This document shows positions 13,315-18,723 of a stretch of DNA of 64,000 nt, one piece after another. Under the pieces are notes generated by a model. That model worked only from the letters and a program-made list of their open reading frames with translations, did not search any database and was not told where the DNA came from. Made by a program: the position numbers and the translations under genes. Origin of the DNA: Lysobacter stagni. Lineage in GTDB: Bacteria > Pseudomonadota > Gammaproteobacteria > Xanthomonadales > Xanthomonadaceae. Each line of letters opens with the position of its first letter. Position 1 is the stretch's first letter. The stretch covers positions 186,001 through 250,000 of the forward strand of contig NZ_JASGBI010000001.1 in the NCBI RefSeq assembly GCF_030053425.1. The letters are read 5' to 3'.

Positions 13315-14490
13315 TTACGCCGCCCGCGCCTTCAGCGCCGCCACCGCCGGCAGTTCCTTGCCTTCCAGGAATTCCAGGAACGCGCCGCCGCCGGTGGAGA
13401 TGTAGGACACGTCGCGCTCGATGCCGTACTTGTCGACCGCTGCCAGCGTGTCGCCGCCACCGGCGATGGAGAACGCGCGGCTCGCGGCGATCGCGCGCGC
13501 CAGCGTTTCCGTGCCCTTGCCGAACGCGTCGAATTCGAACACGCCGACCGGGCCGTTCCACACCACGGTGCCGGCGGCCTTGATCAGCTCCGCATAGCGC
13601 GCGGCGGTCTGCGGGCCGATGTCGAGGATCATGTCGTCCGCGCCGACGGCATCGACGGCCTTGACCGTGGCCGGTGCATCGGCGGCGAAGGCCGGTGCGA
13701 CGACCACGTCCGTCGGAACGGGGATGTCCGCGCCGCGCCCTTTCGCGTCGGCCATGATCTTCTTCGCCGTATCGATCAGGTCGTTCTCGACCAGCGACTT
13801 GCCCACGCCATGCCCCATCGCGGCGATGAAGGTGTTGGCGATGCCGCCGCCGACGATCAGCTGGTCGACCTTGCTCACCAGCGACGACAGCAGCTCCAGC
13901 TTCGTCGACACCTTCGAGCCGGCGACGATGGCCAGCAGCGGGCGTGCCGGGTTGTCCAGCGCCTTGCCCAGCGCGTCGAGTTCGGCCATCAACAGCGGGC
14001 CGCCAGCGGCAACCTTCGCGAAACGGATGGCGCCGTGCGTGGAGGCCTGCGCGCGGTGCGCGGTGCCGAAGGCATCCATGACGTACACGTCGCACAGCGC
14101 GGCGTACTTCTTCGACAGGGCCTCATCGTCCTTGCCCTCGCCGACGTTCATGCGGCAGTTCTCCAGCAGGACCAGCTGACCGGGCTTCACGTCGACGCCA
14201 TCGACCCAGTCCTTCACCAGCGGCACCTCGATGCCGAGCAGTTCCGACAGACGCTTCGCCACGGGCGCGAGCGAATCCTCCTGCGTCCAGGTGCCTTCCT
14301 TCGGACGACCCAGGTGCGAGGTGACCATCACCGCCGCGCCCTTCTCCAGCGCCAGCTTCATGGTCGGCAGGGCCGCGGTGATGCGCTGTTCGGAGGTGAT
14401 GCGGCCATCGTCGATGGGCACGTTGAGATCTTCGCGGATCAACACGCGCTTGCCTTGGAGATCGAGATCGGACATGCGGACGATGGACAT
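13315..14490 (-). CDS. pgk: Phosphoglycerate kinase
   Basis: Converts 1,3-bisphosphoglycerate and ADP to 3-phosphoglycerate and ATP. 391 residues, the usual length. Landmarks: [16 protein letters not shown] at the N terminus (substrate arginine and asparagine), [23 protein letters not shown], the hinge region [18 protein letters not shown], and the nucleotide-binding end [32 protein letters not shown]. The start is the ATG at 14490, with GAGGAAG eight bases before it; reading further upstream would give a 448-residue product without family similarity. Confidence 0.97.
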
Positions 14491-14652
14491 GGATGCTTCC
14501 TCTGCTGGCCCTTCGGCGGAAGGGTCGGTGGGGTGATCGGGAGGTGTGGCGACCGGTCCTGCTGCGGTGTCACCGGCGGTCGCCGAGACGGCCATTGTCC
14601 TCCGCGCATCCCGCCCGGGCAAATCGCGCCCACATTCCGGATCTGCGGTTAT

Positions 14653-14668
14653 CCACAACATTTTGCGT
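14653..14668 (+). promoter_or_regulatory. NrdR-like box 1 upstream of nrdAB
   Basis: CCACAACATTTTGCGT agrees at 12 of 16 positions with the known NrdR box ACACWATATATWGTGT. It ends at the first base of the nrdA -35 hexamer. NrdR is an ATP-cone repressor of ribonucleotide reductase genes that usually binds paired boxes. Confidence 0.6.
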
Positions 14669-14696
14669 TGACTGATGCGCGCACCCCCACTATGTT
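14668..14696 (+). promoter_or_regulatory. Sigma-70-type promoter of nrdAB
   Basis: TTGACT (14668-14673), a 17-base spacer, and TATGTT (14691-14696). Transcription would begin near 14703, just before the riboswitch fold. The -10 lies inside NrdR-like box 2 and the -35 abuts box 1, so repressor binding would hide the promoter. Confidence 0.6.
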
Positions 14697-14700
14697 GTGC
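14685..14700 (+). promoter_or_regulatory. NrdR-like box 2 upstream of nrdAB
   Basis: CCCCACTATGTTGTGC agrees at 11 of 16 positions with the NrdR box, best in its right half. It starts 32 bases (three helix turns) after box 1, the spacing typical of NrdR box pairs, and covers the -10 hexamer. Confidence 0.6.
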
Positions 14701-14720
14701 CCGTCGGTGCCGACTCCTCG

Positions 14721-14916
14721 CGGGTCGGATTAAAAGGGAAGCCGGTACGGACGAAGGTCCAACTCCGGCGCTGCCCCGCAGCGGTATGGGAAACGAAGGT
14801 GGTCATGGCACTGGGCGCACAGCCTGGGAAGCGGCCACCGGTAGGCGACGCGATCCAACGCGTCTCGTCCCGAGCCCGAAGACCTGCCGACAGCCGCGCG
14901 TTGCACACCGCGCGGT
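14721..14916 (+). promoter_or_regulatory. Cobalamin (B12) riboswitch in the nrdAB leader
   Basis: Conserved blocks of the cobalamin aptamer occur in order: TTAAAAGGGAAGCCGGT from 14730, CCGGCGCTGCCCCGCAGCGG at about 14765-14784, GGGAAACGAA, then CACTGGGCGCACAGCCTGGG at 14809-14828, and the B12 box GAGCCCGAAGACCTGCC at 14872-14888, which fits the consensus except for one base. Outer stem P1 pairs GTCGG (14724-14728) with CCGAC (14887-14891). A following hairpin (CCGCGCG 14894-14900 with CGCGCGG 14909-14915) is where the L13 element is expected. Binding of adenosylcobalamin would be predicted to lower nrdAB expression. Confidence 0.92.
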
Positions 14917-14929
14917 GACCGGCCACGGA

Positions 14930-15020
14930 GTCTTCGGAGGGAAGACGGTCGGTGTCGCAGGCGATGGCACTGCCGTCGCCACGCCGTCTCGGTCTGCGCG
15001 ACACCCCGTTTCCATGCTGA
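14930..15020 (+). other. Leader segment: hairpin with a GGAGG loop and a possible 22-codon reading frame
   Basis: GTCTTC (14930-14935) pairs with GAAGAC (14941-14946) around a loop that is exactly GGAGG. Eleven bases further a GTG (14952) opens a 22-codon frame (V-S-Q-A-M-A-L-P-S-P-R-R-L-G and on) ending with TGA at 15018-15020. The rest of the leader to 15092 has a second hairpin (CGTCC/GGACG near 15040-15060) and the nrdA ribosome-binding site CGGAG. I see no T-rich intrinsic terminator. Whether the short frame is translated cannot be judged from sequence. Confidence 0.3.
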
Positions 15021-15092
15021 TGACTCCCGCGCCCGCGTCGTCCTTCGAGGGAGAGGACGGCCAGCCGTGCGCCCACGCACCGGAGTCCTGCC

Positions 15093-17567
15093 ATGAATGC
15101 CATCACCGAAGCGTCCGCCGTCGCGGCGCCCGTCGCCGCACCGAACCGCGACGCGGAACCGTCGCCCGGCTTCGCGCTGACGCCGCCCGCCGCCAACCTC
15201 ACCATGACGGTGACCAAGCGCAGCGGCCGCCGCGAACCGGTGGACCTGAACAAGATCGTGCGCGCGGTGACGCGCAACGGCGAAGGCCTGTTCGCGGTCG
15301 ATCCCATGCGCGTGGCCACGCGCACCATCTCCGGCCTGTACGACGGCGCGAGCACGCGCGAGCTGGATGAGCTGTCCATCCGCACCGCCGCCCTGCTCAC
15401 CGCCGAGGAACCCGAATACGGTCGCCTTGCAGCGCGCCTGCTGGCCGGCGTGATCGAGAAGGAAGTGGCGGGCATCGAGATCCATGCGTTCTCGCAGTCG
15501 GTGCAGCGCGGCCACGAACTGGGCCTGATCAACGACCGCCTGCTGACGTTTGTGCAGGCCAACGCGCGCAAGCTCAACGATGCGATCGACGCCTCGCTCA
15601 ACCTGCGTTTCGACTACTTCGGCCTGCGCACGCTGTACGACCGCTACCTGCTGCGCCACCCGACCGCGCGCACCGTGATCGAGACCCCGCAACAGTTCTT
15701 CCTGCGCATCGCCTGTGCGCTGAGCGAGGACGTGGGCGAGGCGCTCGCGCTGTACCGGCGCATGGCGCAGCTGGACTACATTCCGTCCTCGCCGACGCTG
15801 TTCAACTCCGGCACCACGCACGAGCAGCTGTCGAGCTGCTTCCTGCTCGACTCGCCCGAGGATTCGCTGGAGAGCATCTACAAGCGCTACATGGACGTGG
15901 CCAAGCTGAGCAAGTTCAGCGGCGGCATCGGCCTGTCGTACACGCGCATCCGCTCGCGCGGCTCGCTGATCCGTTCCACCAACGGCCTGAGCAACGGCAT
16001 CGTGCCGTGGCTGAAGACGCTGGATGCGTCCGTCGCGGCGGTCAACCAGGGCGGCAAGCGCAAGGGCGCGGCCTGCGTGTACCTGGAGCCGTGGCATGCG
16101 GACGTCGAGGAATTCCTCGAACTGCGCGACAACACCGGCGACGAAGCGCGCCGCACGCACAACCTCAACCTGGCCAACTGGATCCCCGACGAGTTCATGC
16201 GCCGCGTCGAGGCCGACGGCGAGTGGTCGCTGTTCGACCCGGCGAAAGTGCCGCAGCTGACCGACCTGTGGGGCGAGGCGTTCGAGCGCGCGTACCACGC
16301 CGCCGAAGCCGCAGGCCTTGCCGTGAAGAAGGTCAAGGCGCGCGACCTCTACGCGCGGATGATGCGCACGCTGGCACAGACCGGCAACGGCTGGATGAAC
16401 TTCAAGGACAAGTCCAACCGCGCCTGCAACCAGACCCTGCGCGATGGCAACGTCGTGCACCTGTCGAACCTGTGCACGGAAATCCTGGAGGTCACGTCGC
16501 AGGACGAGACCGCAGTGTGCAACCTGGGCTCGATCAATCTTTCGCACCACGTCGAACTGTTCGAGGAAGGCACCGTCCACGGCGAGTCCGGACGCTTCGA
16601 TTTCGACAAGCTCGCCGACACCGTGCGACTGGCGGTGCGTCAGCTCGACCGCGTGATCGATCTCAACTTCTATCCGATCGAAACCGCACGTCGCGCCAAC
16701 CTCAAGTGGCGCCCGGTCGGCCTGGGCGTGATGGGCCTGCAGGACGTGTTCTTCAAGCTGCGCCTGCCGTTCGATTCCGACGCTGCGCGGGCGTTGTCGA
16801 AGCGGATCGCCGAAGCGGTGTATTTCCATGCGTTGTCGGCATCGAACGAGCTGGCGATGGAGCGCGGACGGCACCCCTCGTTCGCCGACACGCGCGCCGC
16901 GCAGGGCGAACTGCAGTTCGAAGCCTGGGGCGTGGCGCCGGAAGATGCCGAACGCTGGGACGGCTTGCGGGCACGCATCGCCGAGCACGGCCTGCGCAAC
17001 TCTCTGCTCATCGCCATCGCGCCGACGGCGACCATCGCCTCCATCGCCGGCTGCTACGAATGCATCGAGCCGCAGGTGTCGAACCTGTTCAAGCGCGAGA
17101 CGCTGTCGGGCGACTTCCTGGTCGTCAACAAGTACCTCGTCGAGGAACTCAAGGCACTGGGCCTGTGGACGCCGGAGCTGCGCGACCGCATCAAGATGGC
17201 GGAAGGGTCCATCCAGGGCATCGAGGCGATTCCCGAATCGCTGCGCGCCGTGTACCGCACCGCGTGGGAACTGCCGATGCGCTCGCTGATCGACATGGCC
17301 GCCGAGCGCGGCGCGTTCATCGACCAGAGCCAGTCGCTCAACCTGTTCATCGAAAGCCCGAACATCGGCCAGCTCTCGTCGATGTACATGTACGCGTGGA
17401 AGAAGGGCCTGAAGACCACGTATTACCTGCGCTCGCGCCCGGCCACGAAGATCGCCAAGGCCACGGTGAGCGGCGCGACCGCGCAGGCACCGAAGCCCGA
17501 GTACACGCCGACGGAAGCCGTTGCGTGCTCGCTGGAGAACCCCGAGGCCTGCGAGGCCTGCCAGTAA
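15093..17567 (+). CDS. nrdA: Class Ia ribonucleoside-diphosphate reductase, alpha subunit
   Basis: Reduces ribonucleoside diphosphates to deoxyribonucleotides in the cytoplasm, together with NrdB. 824 residues. An ATP-cone lies near residues 35-130 (VTKRSGRREPVDLNKIVRAV). The active-site cysteine pair is C249 (QLSSCFLL) and C476 (TAVCNLGS); the thiyl-radical position is C461 in SNLCTEI, with N459 and E463. The C-terminal shuttle is EACEACQ. The ATG at 15093 follows CGGAG at a normal distance. It is transcribed behind paired NrdR-like boxes and a cobalamin riboswitch. nrdB follows after 145 bases that contain a repeat element. Confidence 0.96.
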   Translation: MNAITEASAVAAPVAAPNRDAEPSPGFALTPPAANLTMTVTKRSGRREPVDLNKIVRAVTRNGEGLFAVDPMRVATRTISGLYDGASTRELDELSIRTAALLTAEEPEYGRLAARLLAGVIEKEVAGIEIHAFSQSVQRGHELGLINDRLLTFVQANARKLNDAIDASLNLRFDYFGLRTLYDRYLLRHPTARTVIETPQQFFLRIACALSEDVGEALALYRRMAQLDYIPSSPTLFNSGTTHEQLSSCFLLDSPEDSLESIYKRYMDVAKLSKFSGGIGLSYTRIRSRGSLIRSTNGLSNGIVPWLKTLDASVAAVNQGGKRKGAACVYLEPWHADVEEFLELRDNTGDEARRTHNLNLANWIPDEFMRRVEADGEWSLFDPAKVPQLTDLWGEAFERAYHAAEAAGLAVKKVKARDLYARMMRTLAQTGNGWMNFKDKSNRACNQTLRDGNVVHLSNLCTEILEVTSQDETAVCNLGSINLSHHVELFEEGTVHGESGRFDFDKLADTVRLAVRQLDRVIDLNFYPIETARRANLKWRPVGLGVMGLQDVFFKLRLPFDSDAARALSKRIAEAVYFHALSASNELAMERGRHPSFADTRAAQGELQFEAWGVAPEDAERWDGLRARIAEHGLRNSLLIAIAPTATIASIAGCYECIEPQVSNLFKRETLSGDFLVVNKYLVEELKALGLWTPELRDRIKMAEGSIQGIEAIPESLRAVYRTAWELPMRSLIDMAAERGAFIDQSQSLNLFIESPNIGQLSSMYMYAWKKGLKTTYYLRSRPATKIAKATVSGATAQAPKPEYTPTEAVACSLENPEACEACQ

Positions 17568-17577
17568 CCCCGTTGCT

Positions 17578-17695
17578 CCCTCTTCCCTCGCGGAAGGGGG
17601 ACAGGCGCAAAGCGCCAGGGTGAGGGGCGGTTCTCCCTCCCCTGAAGCCCTCCTCTCCTGGCGCTGCGCGCCTCCTCTCCCGGAAGGGAGAGGGC
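17578..17695. repeat. REP-like palindromic element inside the nrdA-nrdB gap
   Basis: Same architecture as the element at 13167-13296. Outer arms are CCCTCTTCCCTCGCGGAAGG (from 17578) and CCTCTCCCGGAAGGGAGAGG (ending near 17694). Inner hairpins are GGCGCAAAGCGCC and GGCGCTGCGCGCC. It fills nearly the whole space between two cotranscribed genes, so it is transcribed with them. Confidence 0.78.
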
Positions 17696-17712
17696 CATCC
17701 GAAGGATCCGAC

Positions 17713-18723
17713 ATGACCCCGCCCCGCCTGCTCGACCCAGGCTTCGACCTCACCCTGCGGCCGATGCGCTATCCGCAGTTCTACGAGATGTACCGCGACG
17801 CCATCCGCAACACGTGGACCGTCGAAGAGGTCGACTTCTCGCTCGACGTCAACGACCTCAAGCACAAGCTCGGGCCGGCGGAGCGCCACCTGATCGAACG
17901 CCTGGTCGCGTTCTTCGCCACCGGCGACAGCATCGTCGCCAACAATCTGGTGCTGAATCTGTACCAGCACATCAACGCGCCCGAGGCGCGCATGTACCTG
18001 TCGCGCCAGCTGTACGAGGAAGCGCTGCACGTGCAGTTCTACCTCACCCTGCTGGACACCTACCTGCCCGACCCGGTCGCGCGGGCGAAGGCGTTCGACG
18101 CGGTGGAGAACATCCCGTCGATCCGCGCCAAGGCGGAGTTCTGCTTCAAGTGGATCGATTCCATCCAGGGGCTGTCGCGCATCGAAACCACCGCGCAGCG
18201 CCGCCAGTTCCTGCTCAACCTGATCTGCTTCGCCTGCTGCATCGAAGGCCTGTTCTTCTTCGCCGCGTTCGCCTACGTGTACTACCTGCGCTCGCGCGGG
18301 CTGCTGCACGGGCTGGCCTCGGGCACCAACTGGGTGTTCCGCGACGAGAGCTGCCACATGGCGTTCGCCTTCGAAGTCATCCACACGGCGCGCAGCGAGG
18401 AGCCCGAGCTGTTCGATGACGAACTGAAGGCGCAGGTCGTGCGCATGCTCGAGGAAGCGGTGGAGTGCGAGATGCAGTTCGCGCAGGACGTGCTGTCGGG
18501 CGGCGTCGCGGGATTGTCGCCGAAGGACATGCGCCAGTACCTGCAGTACTGCGCGGACCAGCGACTGACCCAGTTGGGAATGCCGAAGCATTTCGGCGCC
18601 ACCAACCCGTTCGCCTTCATGGACCTGCAGGACGTGCAGGAAGTGACCAACTTCTTCGAGCGTCGTGTGTCGGCCTACCAGGTGGGCGTGGAAGGCGAAG
18701 TGGCGTTCGACGCGGCGTTCTGA
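17713..18723 (+). CDS. nrdB: Class Ia ribonucleoside-diphosphate reductase, beta subunit
   Basis: Carries the di-iron centre and tyrosyl radical that start catalysis in NrdA. 336 residues. The metal ligands and radical tyrosine are visible: D72 (TGDSIVANN), E103, H106 and Y110 in LYEEALHVQFY, and the second ligand set in CCIEGLFFF and FRDESCHMAFAFEVIH. The presence of Y110 argues for the classical tyrosyl-radical type (class Ia) and not the tyrosine-less class Ic. The start is ATG 17713 with AAGGA seven bases before it. A longer in-frame reading runs back through the repeat element and is not credible. Confidence 0.97.
   Translation: MTPPRLLDPGFDLTLRPMRYPQFYEMYRDAIRNTWTVEEVDFSLDVNDLKHKLGPAERHLIERLVAFFATGDSIVANNLVLNLYQHINAPEARMYLSRQLYEEALHVQFYLTLLDTYLPDPVARAKAFDAVENIPSIRAKAEFCFKWIDSIQGLSRIETTAQRRQFLLNLICFACCIEGLFFFAAFAYVYYLRSRGLLHGLASGTNWVFRDESCHMAFAFEVIHTARSEEPELFDDELKAQVVRMLEEAVECEMQFAQDVLSGGVAGLSPKDMRQYLQYCADQRLTQLGMPKHFGATNPFAFMDLQDVQEVTNFFERRVSAYQVGVEGEVAFDAAF

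Follow-up and report, generated by a model that had tools for sequence, protein, structure and literature searches.

Why should a B12-independent ribonucleotide reductase operon carry both a pair of NrdR-like boxes at its promoter and a cobalamin riboswitch in its leader? This is the arrangement found in front of nrdAB of Lysobacter stagni, in the 64-kb stretch of DNA that was analysed as a whole and is called the window below. The answer that we consider highly probable is that nrdAB is under two stacked OFF controls, the NrdR boxes and an adenosylcobalamin riboswitch, leaving dNTP supply to the class II reductase NrdJ.

Reductase and B12 genes of Lysobacter stagni

The operon consists of two genes:

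15093-17567, + strand: nrdA, class I reductase alpha subunit, with one ATP cone
17584-18723 (start provisional), + strand: nrdB, class I reductase beta subunit, from profile matches

A tyrosine of NrdB aligns with that of class Ia beta subunits (human p53R2, 3hf1), and we take it to be the radical site; together with the ATP cone of NrdA, this agrees with the class Ia assignment made in an earlier, sequence-only reading of this DNA. The nearest named nrdA among the matches listed is that of Lysobacter niastensis, 93% identical.

That reading had also predicted a class II reductase elsewhere in the genome and had proposed a search for nrdR, and both genes have been found. The genome assembly is 3.93 Mb in 3 contigs, with completeness 100. 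Its nrdJ is intact, encodes 717 aa and scores 584.3 bits with TIGR02504, against an NCBIfam equivalog cut-off of 399.95, and the one nrdR, encoding a Zn ribbon and an ATP cone, scores 195.9 bits against a cut-off of 124.65. The reductase barrel family is present in two copies, nrdA and nrdJ; a class III reductase gene (nrdD) was sought in the genome and not found. There are three cobalamin riboswitches, one before nrdAB and two before genes for TonB-dependent B12 receptors, and nrdJ has no RF00174 match. Behind one of these receptor genes, a btuB, on the same strand, lie two unassigned frames and cbiB, cobQ, cobU-type, cobS and btuR/cobO-type adenosyltransferase genes.

Promoter and NrdR-like boxes

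Three features make up the promoter region, the boxes being scored against a palindromic consensus that we take to be that of NrdR:

14653-14668, + strand: NrdR-like box 1, 12/16 to this consensus, conserved in relatives
14668-14696, + strand: sigma-70-like promoter TTGACT-17-TATGTT, from a promoter scan
14685-14700, + strand: NrdR-like box 2, over the -10 hexamer, 11/16 to this consensus, conserved in relatives

This promoter is the sole promoter-like site that the scan detected in 14500-15100 (shuffles: mean 0.0, sd 0.1). The earlier description of two 16-mers exactly 32 bases apart, one at the -35 and the other covering the -10, is confirmed by direct inspection: the distance from start to start is 32, and box 1 ends on the base that opens the -35 hexamer. 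An NrdR operator should consist of two palindromic 16-base boxes separated by roughly three turns of the helix, and the promoter of this nrd operon has such a pair. A single-box search of the whole 64-kb window with up to three mismatches gave no match, so each box by itself is degenerate. When the + strand of the window was scored for pairs at spacing 32, the true pair came out best with 23/32 and the runner-up with 18; this, together with its recurrence in relatives, argues that the pair is not due to chance.

The recurrence was followed in 76 promoters, those of the window and of 75 riboswitch-bearing relatives from the best 80 of at least 580 nrdA stretches. The best pair at spacing 31-33 scores at least 22/32 in 62 of the 76 and at least 21 in 68, the spacing among these 68 being 32 in 62, 31 in five and 33 in one. 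In the other eight promoters the pair scores 20 or less (lowest in L051, about 14 at spacings 30-33), which counts against the two-control model. When the spacing is fixed at each value between 20 and 45 in turn, the mean score is highest at 32 (22.2/32, with 56 of 76 promoters at 22 or above); there are lesser peaks at 30 (20.1; 20/76) and 34 (19.7; 12/76), and the other spacings give 18.6 or less. Permuted consensus sequences (n=200) brought a mean of 1.3 of the 76 promoters to 22 or above and the best permutation 58, motif-like permutations having been kept in the set, so that this control is weak at its upper end.

In the Lysobacter stagni genome a similar pair follows the promoter of nrdJ (L006:911-926 and 943-958; 20/32, spacing 32). 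Ten other nrdJ upstream regions have best pairs of 20-23, with spacing 31 in nine and 32 in one, all these nrdJ figures being uncontrolled best-of-region scores.

Divergent from nrdAB, at 13315-14661 on the - strand, is a phosphoglycerate-kinase-like gene with a single NCBIfam match (462 bits, under the model cut-off), whose longest frame overlaps the nrdAB promoter region.

Cobalamin aptamer and leader

The leader between the promoter and nrdA contains the following elements:

14688-14905, + strand: cobalamin riboswitch aptamer (RF00174, 102.2 bits, E 1.9e-24); the Rfam boundaries start inside the promoter
14703-14707, + strand: 5' arm of P1, read by eye, pairing with 14887-14891
14770-14782, + strand: L5 hairpin with C-rich loop, core CTGCCCCGC, the core being found in 76 of 76 aptamers
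about 14808-14814, + strand: B12 box, from the Rfam alignment
14893-14916, + strand: G+C-rich hairpin after P1, with eight pairs invariant in 12 aligned leaders
14930-14946, + strand: P13-like hairpin with G-rich loop, a possible kissing partner of L5 judging from loop complementarity
14950-15092, + strand: rest of the leader, no intrinsic terminator detected

The covariance-model search that had been proposed as a check gave a strong match covering the full length of the model (1-189; cut-off 31.5 bits), and the alignment includes the B12 box and the core helices, so that the cobalamin aptamer reported directly after the expected start is borne out. It is the only Rfam match above its cut-off within the 64-kb window. 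Transcription would be expected to start at the 5' arm of P1 (14703), six bases past the -10. The same gap, readable in 70 of the 76 loci, is 6 bases in 36 of them, 7 in 19 and of other length in 15.

By a loose rule, 52 of the 76 loci have a hairpin whose loop is GGGG or GCGG, and in 48 of these it begins 20-33 bases past the Rfam end; the loop of the window's own P13-like hairpin is G-rich, not GGGG. With the L5 core, this suggests the usual L5-L13 kissing. Loose hairpin counts matched 73 of the 76 loci, several of the matches being plainly other hairpins, and none of the 33 pairs in an RNAalifold consensus fold of 12 leaders has two-sided changes, so the support for the downstream hairpins comes from conservation and the loose counts.

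The search for an intrinsic terminator in the leader found none, which makes Rho-dependent termination or hindered translation the likelier outputs. The highest C-over-G excess of the downstream leader (ratio 1.9), at 14968-15046, would suit Rho and proves nothing. With the upstream leader included, the folds leave the ribosome site half open (mean unpaired 0.49 and 0.57), and a short fold of 14950-15130 pairs most of it (0.18); the site is not clearly hidden, and this counts against the two-control model. Masking of the ribosome site by GGAGUC/GACUCC pairing, present in the fold of the window and by eye in near relatives, is absent from the L101, L031 and L035 leaders and is not claimed for that reason.

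Since cobalamin riboswitches are described as broadly corrinoid-sensitive (PMC9600662), the ligand could be another corrinoid such as methyl- or hydroxocobalamin. We consider this unlikely: NrdJ uses adenosylcobalamin according to its family description, and the aptamer has, by eye, an extra region behind P6, a feature ascribed to the adenosylcobalamin class and not to the methylcobalamin class (PMC8123684). Adenosylcobalamin is taken as the probable ligand in what follows.

Distribution of the riboswitch and nrdJ

In the named nrdA loci studied (the best 80 of at least 580 confirmed stretches), RF00174 lies just upstream of nrdA in 75 of 80. Three of the misses, L055, L070 and L076, have just 61, 34 and 338 bases ahead of the match. 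The other two, L080 and L082 from Myxococcus, have no riboswitch in the 3,000 bases before nrdA; nrdJ is present in both, which counts against the two-control model. Searching for nrdJ in the 50 named genomes covered, out of the 80 loci, gave matches above cut-off in 48. Among the riboswitch-bearing ones 44 of 45 have nrdJ, the exception being the MAG of L062, whose switch without a detected nrdJ also counts against the model; nrdJ was likewise not found in the 1.5-Mb MAG of L076, where the upstream region is cut.

Five further Myxococcota nrdA loci (L051, L074, L075, L085 and L086, 72-75% identical) do have the riboswitch, and it is possible, given the two Myxococcus loci that lack it, that the operon was transferred together with its switch. 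Three nrdA genes 72-83% identical occur in records named Tolypothrix (L015), Nitrospira (MAG; L055) and Acidobacteriota (MAG; L081), reflecting contamination, misbinning or transfer; the Tolypothrix and Acidobacteriota records contain the riboswitch. Additional cobalamin riboswitches near nrdAB were seen at L043:1963-2259 (-), L062:2135-2376 (-) and L010:7199-7414 (+); the first two lie upstream of nrdAB and face the other way.

At the level of the order, 91 genomes were searched, with stricter RNA filters that lose weak matches. NrdA was matched at 1e-100 in 39, at 70% identity or more in 27 of these. RF00174 lies in front of the gene in 21 of the 27, all 21 having nrdJ (79-100% identical); the remaining six, all of one genus, have neither. 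In the other 12 genomes NrdA is 43-48% identical and its gene is not preceded by RF00174; 11 of them show no nrdJ of this kind, seven of these 11 containing a further reductase-like frame 31-35% identical to the nrdJ query over part of its length. The twelfth, G006, has both an nrdJ (79% identical) and the other nrdA type, and counts against the two-control model; its nrdA contig extends 453 bases beyond the match, with no RF00174 match there. Three genomes of 94-100% completeness, G061, G004 and G019, have no NrdJ match at 1e-20 and no NrdA match at 1e-100.

The statement that the riboswitch implies nrdJ holds in these samples, with one doubtful exception (the L062 MAG) and with G100, described below, in which nrdJ is broken. 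The converse, that nrdJ implies the riboswitch, does not hold.

Loss of nrdJ and of the riboswitch within one genus

The genus of G013, whose leaders are similar to the leaders at L031 and L035 of Stenotrophomonas, was sampled through 61 genomes, again with the stricter riboswitch filters. All 61 have nrdA, 17 have an nrdJ match (1e-100) and 15 have RF00174 before nrdA; these 15 all fall among the 17. The other 44 yielded neither, and every one of them has kept the promoter pattern and the boxes. G103 and G134 have a divergent nrdJ, a decayed leader and no riboswitch, and are counted against the two-control model. In G100, one of the 15, the nrdJ is broken, residues 1-75 being joined to 490-679, followed by a frameshift.

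On an NrdA tree made by a quick method (70 rows), the 47 rows without riboswitch fall into a single clade (SH-aLRT 99), which branches from within the riboswitch rows. The absence of the riboswitch in the genus is thus one loss, and, this being a single event on the tree, the genus counts are not independent. G100 lies outside the clade as a second, separate case; with G100 scored as lacking nrdJ, four changes of nrdJ are needed on the NrdA tree. An independent-pairs test has one pair, so that significance is unreachable. In a tree of ten nrdJ sequences (first 315 residues), the G103 and G134 ones share a group (99/96) separate from that of three nrdJs native to the genus (98/96), as would be expected had nrdJ been acquired again.

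The G103 nrdJ has an in-frame, intein-like insert of about 350 codons (L173:2106-3168), and in G025, G058, G090, G156, G178 and G193 the nrdJ match falls in two pieces inside one long frame.

The leaders have decayed to different degrees. A permissive RF00174 search was made on 14 loci, from ten of the 44 genomes and from G086, G100, G103 and G134. The G100 leader still scores 73.0 bits, its alignment being gapped where the B12 box begins; that of G127 scores 31.5 bits, exactly the cut-off, with P4-P6 of the model skipped; G116 and G068 score 21.9 and 18.7 bits, and the remaining ten leaders gave no RF00174 match up to E = 5. In the alignment of decayed leaders, the P1 arms and the leader further downstream can still be traced as remnants. 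In the leaders L093, L096, L100, L120, L134 and L145, TGCGAC.CC followed by CC or CA-rich bases persists despite decay of the aptamer. From the promoter to a fixed NrdA codon, lengths that include some coding bases, the distance is 268-417 in genomes without nrdJ, 350-362 in G103 and G134, and 456-533 in 17 loci with riboswitch, eight of which, the window included, are from other genera or outside the genus sample; L166 (mis-measured, 76) and five loci with a differing -35 or misplaced anchor were left out.

These same genomes bear on whether the boxes are NrdR operators at all. The riboswitch might be real and the 16-mers merely conserved promoter surroundings: with the -10 inside box 2 and the -35 touched by box 1, part of their conservation is that of the promoter, the individual boxes differ from the consensus at 4 and 5 positions, and the best of the 200 permuted consensus sequences reached 58 of 76 promoters. 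Box 1, however, with only its last base in the -35, has 1.86 bits/column in the 46 genomes without riboswitch, while the 8 preceding bases have 1.17 and the 11 variable spacer columns 1.19; the next 12 bases have 1.41 and the following 40, not gap-aligned, 0.82. Box 2 has 2.00 bits/column, a figure affected by the pattern used in the search, which fixed several of its columns. Spacing 32 also stands out from 30 and 34 in mean pair score, the similar pair by nrdJ is, by eye, clear of the -35 and -10 of that gene, and the genome contains nrdR, all of which makes conserved surroundings a distinctly improbable account of the boxes. The idea that the aptamer no longer functions in Lysobacter stagni, being a relic as in the relatives without nrdJ, deserves very little credence: decayed copies do occur in the genus studied, but here the match is to the full model at 102 bits, nrdJ is intact and genes for B12 uptake and adenosylation are present.

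For the genus itself, we lean towards a trap as the cause of decay. An intact B12 riboswitch on the sole reductase would let B12 stop DNA synthesis, and for that reason the ligand-binding core must break at once when NrdJ is lost, while the NrdR operators stay. The genus would then be a fossil series across separate lineages, running from G100 (gap in the B12 box, nrdJ broken by deletion) to G127 (P4-P6 lost), later to the weak remains in G116 and G068, and from there to traces only, such as P1 arms. An nrdJ acquired again, as may have happened in G103 and G134, would meet no switch to work with. A literature search that covered few subscription papers found nothing on decay of an nrdAB cobalamin riboswitch.

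Model for the control of nrdAB

With abundant deoxynucleotides, NrdR would occupy both boxes, on the -35 side and over the -10, and block transcription. Any transcript that is made would begin, within a base or so, with the cobalamin riboswitch. When adenosylcobalamin is plentiful the riboswitch would fold, L5 would kiss the loop of the downstream hairpin and nrdAB output would drop, so that deoxynucleotides would be made by the B12-dependent NrdJ instead. The start site, ligand, direction and kissing loop are inferred from the features above, as are NrdR binding and the response to dATP; the predicted action is that of an OFF switch with adenosylcobalamin, probably working through Rho-dependent termination or hindered translation. 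Besides the elements themselves, their conservation in relatives, and the genes nrdJ, nrdR and those for B12 uptake and adenosylation, the joint presence or absence of nrdJ and riboswitch among the 27 close-NrdA genomes (21 with both, six with neither) speaks for the model, and so does the conservation of both boxes in genomes where the aptamer has decayed. At the level of genome comparison, the link between riboswitch and nrdJ holds in the relatives, apart from the exceptions given above.

Comparison with known systems

The nrdABS operon of Streptomyces, a class Ia operon, is said to have been described by Borovok et al. in 2006 as being under a coenzyme B12 riboswitch, reportedly with nrdJ and NrdR boxes as well. 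On that account, it and the Lysobacter stagni system are alike in four respects: the class Ia operon, the B12 riboswitch, nrdJ and the NrdR boxes. They differ in that Streptomyces belongs to another phylum, that the Lysobacter aptamer lies about six bases past the -10, and that nrdR is not beside nrdJ in Lysobacter stagni.

Control of nrdAB by both NrdR and B12 has already been published for Propionibacterium acnes (PMC3848588). There one NrdR box lies across the nrdAB promoter, a cobalamin riboswitch is annotated in the leader, much transcription appears to end ahead of nrdA, and nrdJ is the cobalamin-dependent enzyme. The box over the promoter, the leader riboswitch and nrdJ are shared with Lysobacter, which has two boxes to the one of P. 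acnes; nrdDG of P. acnes also has a riboswitch (same text), whereas no nrdD was found in Lysobacter stagni. The two-box layout, with one box over the -10, is shared with Pseudomonas aeruginosa, where two NrdR boxes per nrd promoter are described (PMC4409342); unlike in the Lysobacter model, the B12 effect on nrd expression in that species is said to be riboswitch-independent (PMC5962746). A cobalamin riboswitch before metE where metH exists (PMC9600662) is a similar case of a B12-independent isoenzyme turned off by B12, the enzyme being methionine synthase, not ribonucleotide reductase. Isozymes of B12-dependent enzymes form a class in a survey of riboswitch regulons, the main text of which, as far as available, does not name nrd (PMC3766115).

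Dual nrdAB control has been described for actinobacteria; here it appears to be the common nrdAB layout of Lysobacter and its relatives, with the aptamer placed directly behind the operator-promoter. The decay series adds evidence from nature that the riboswitch is used to select between the B12-dependent and the B12-independent reductase.
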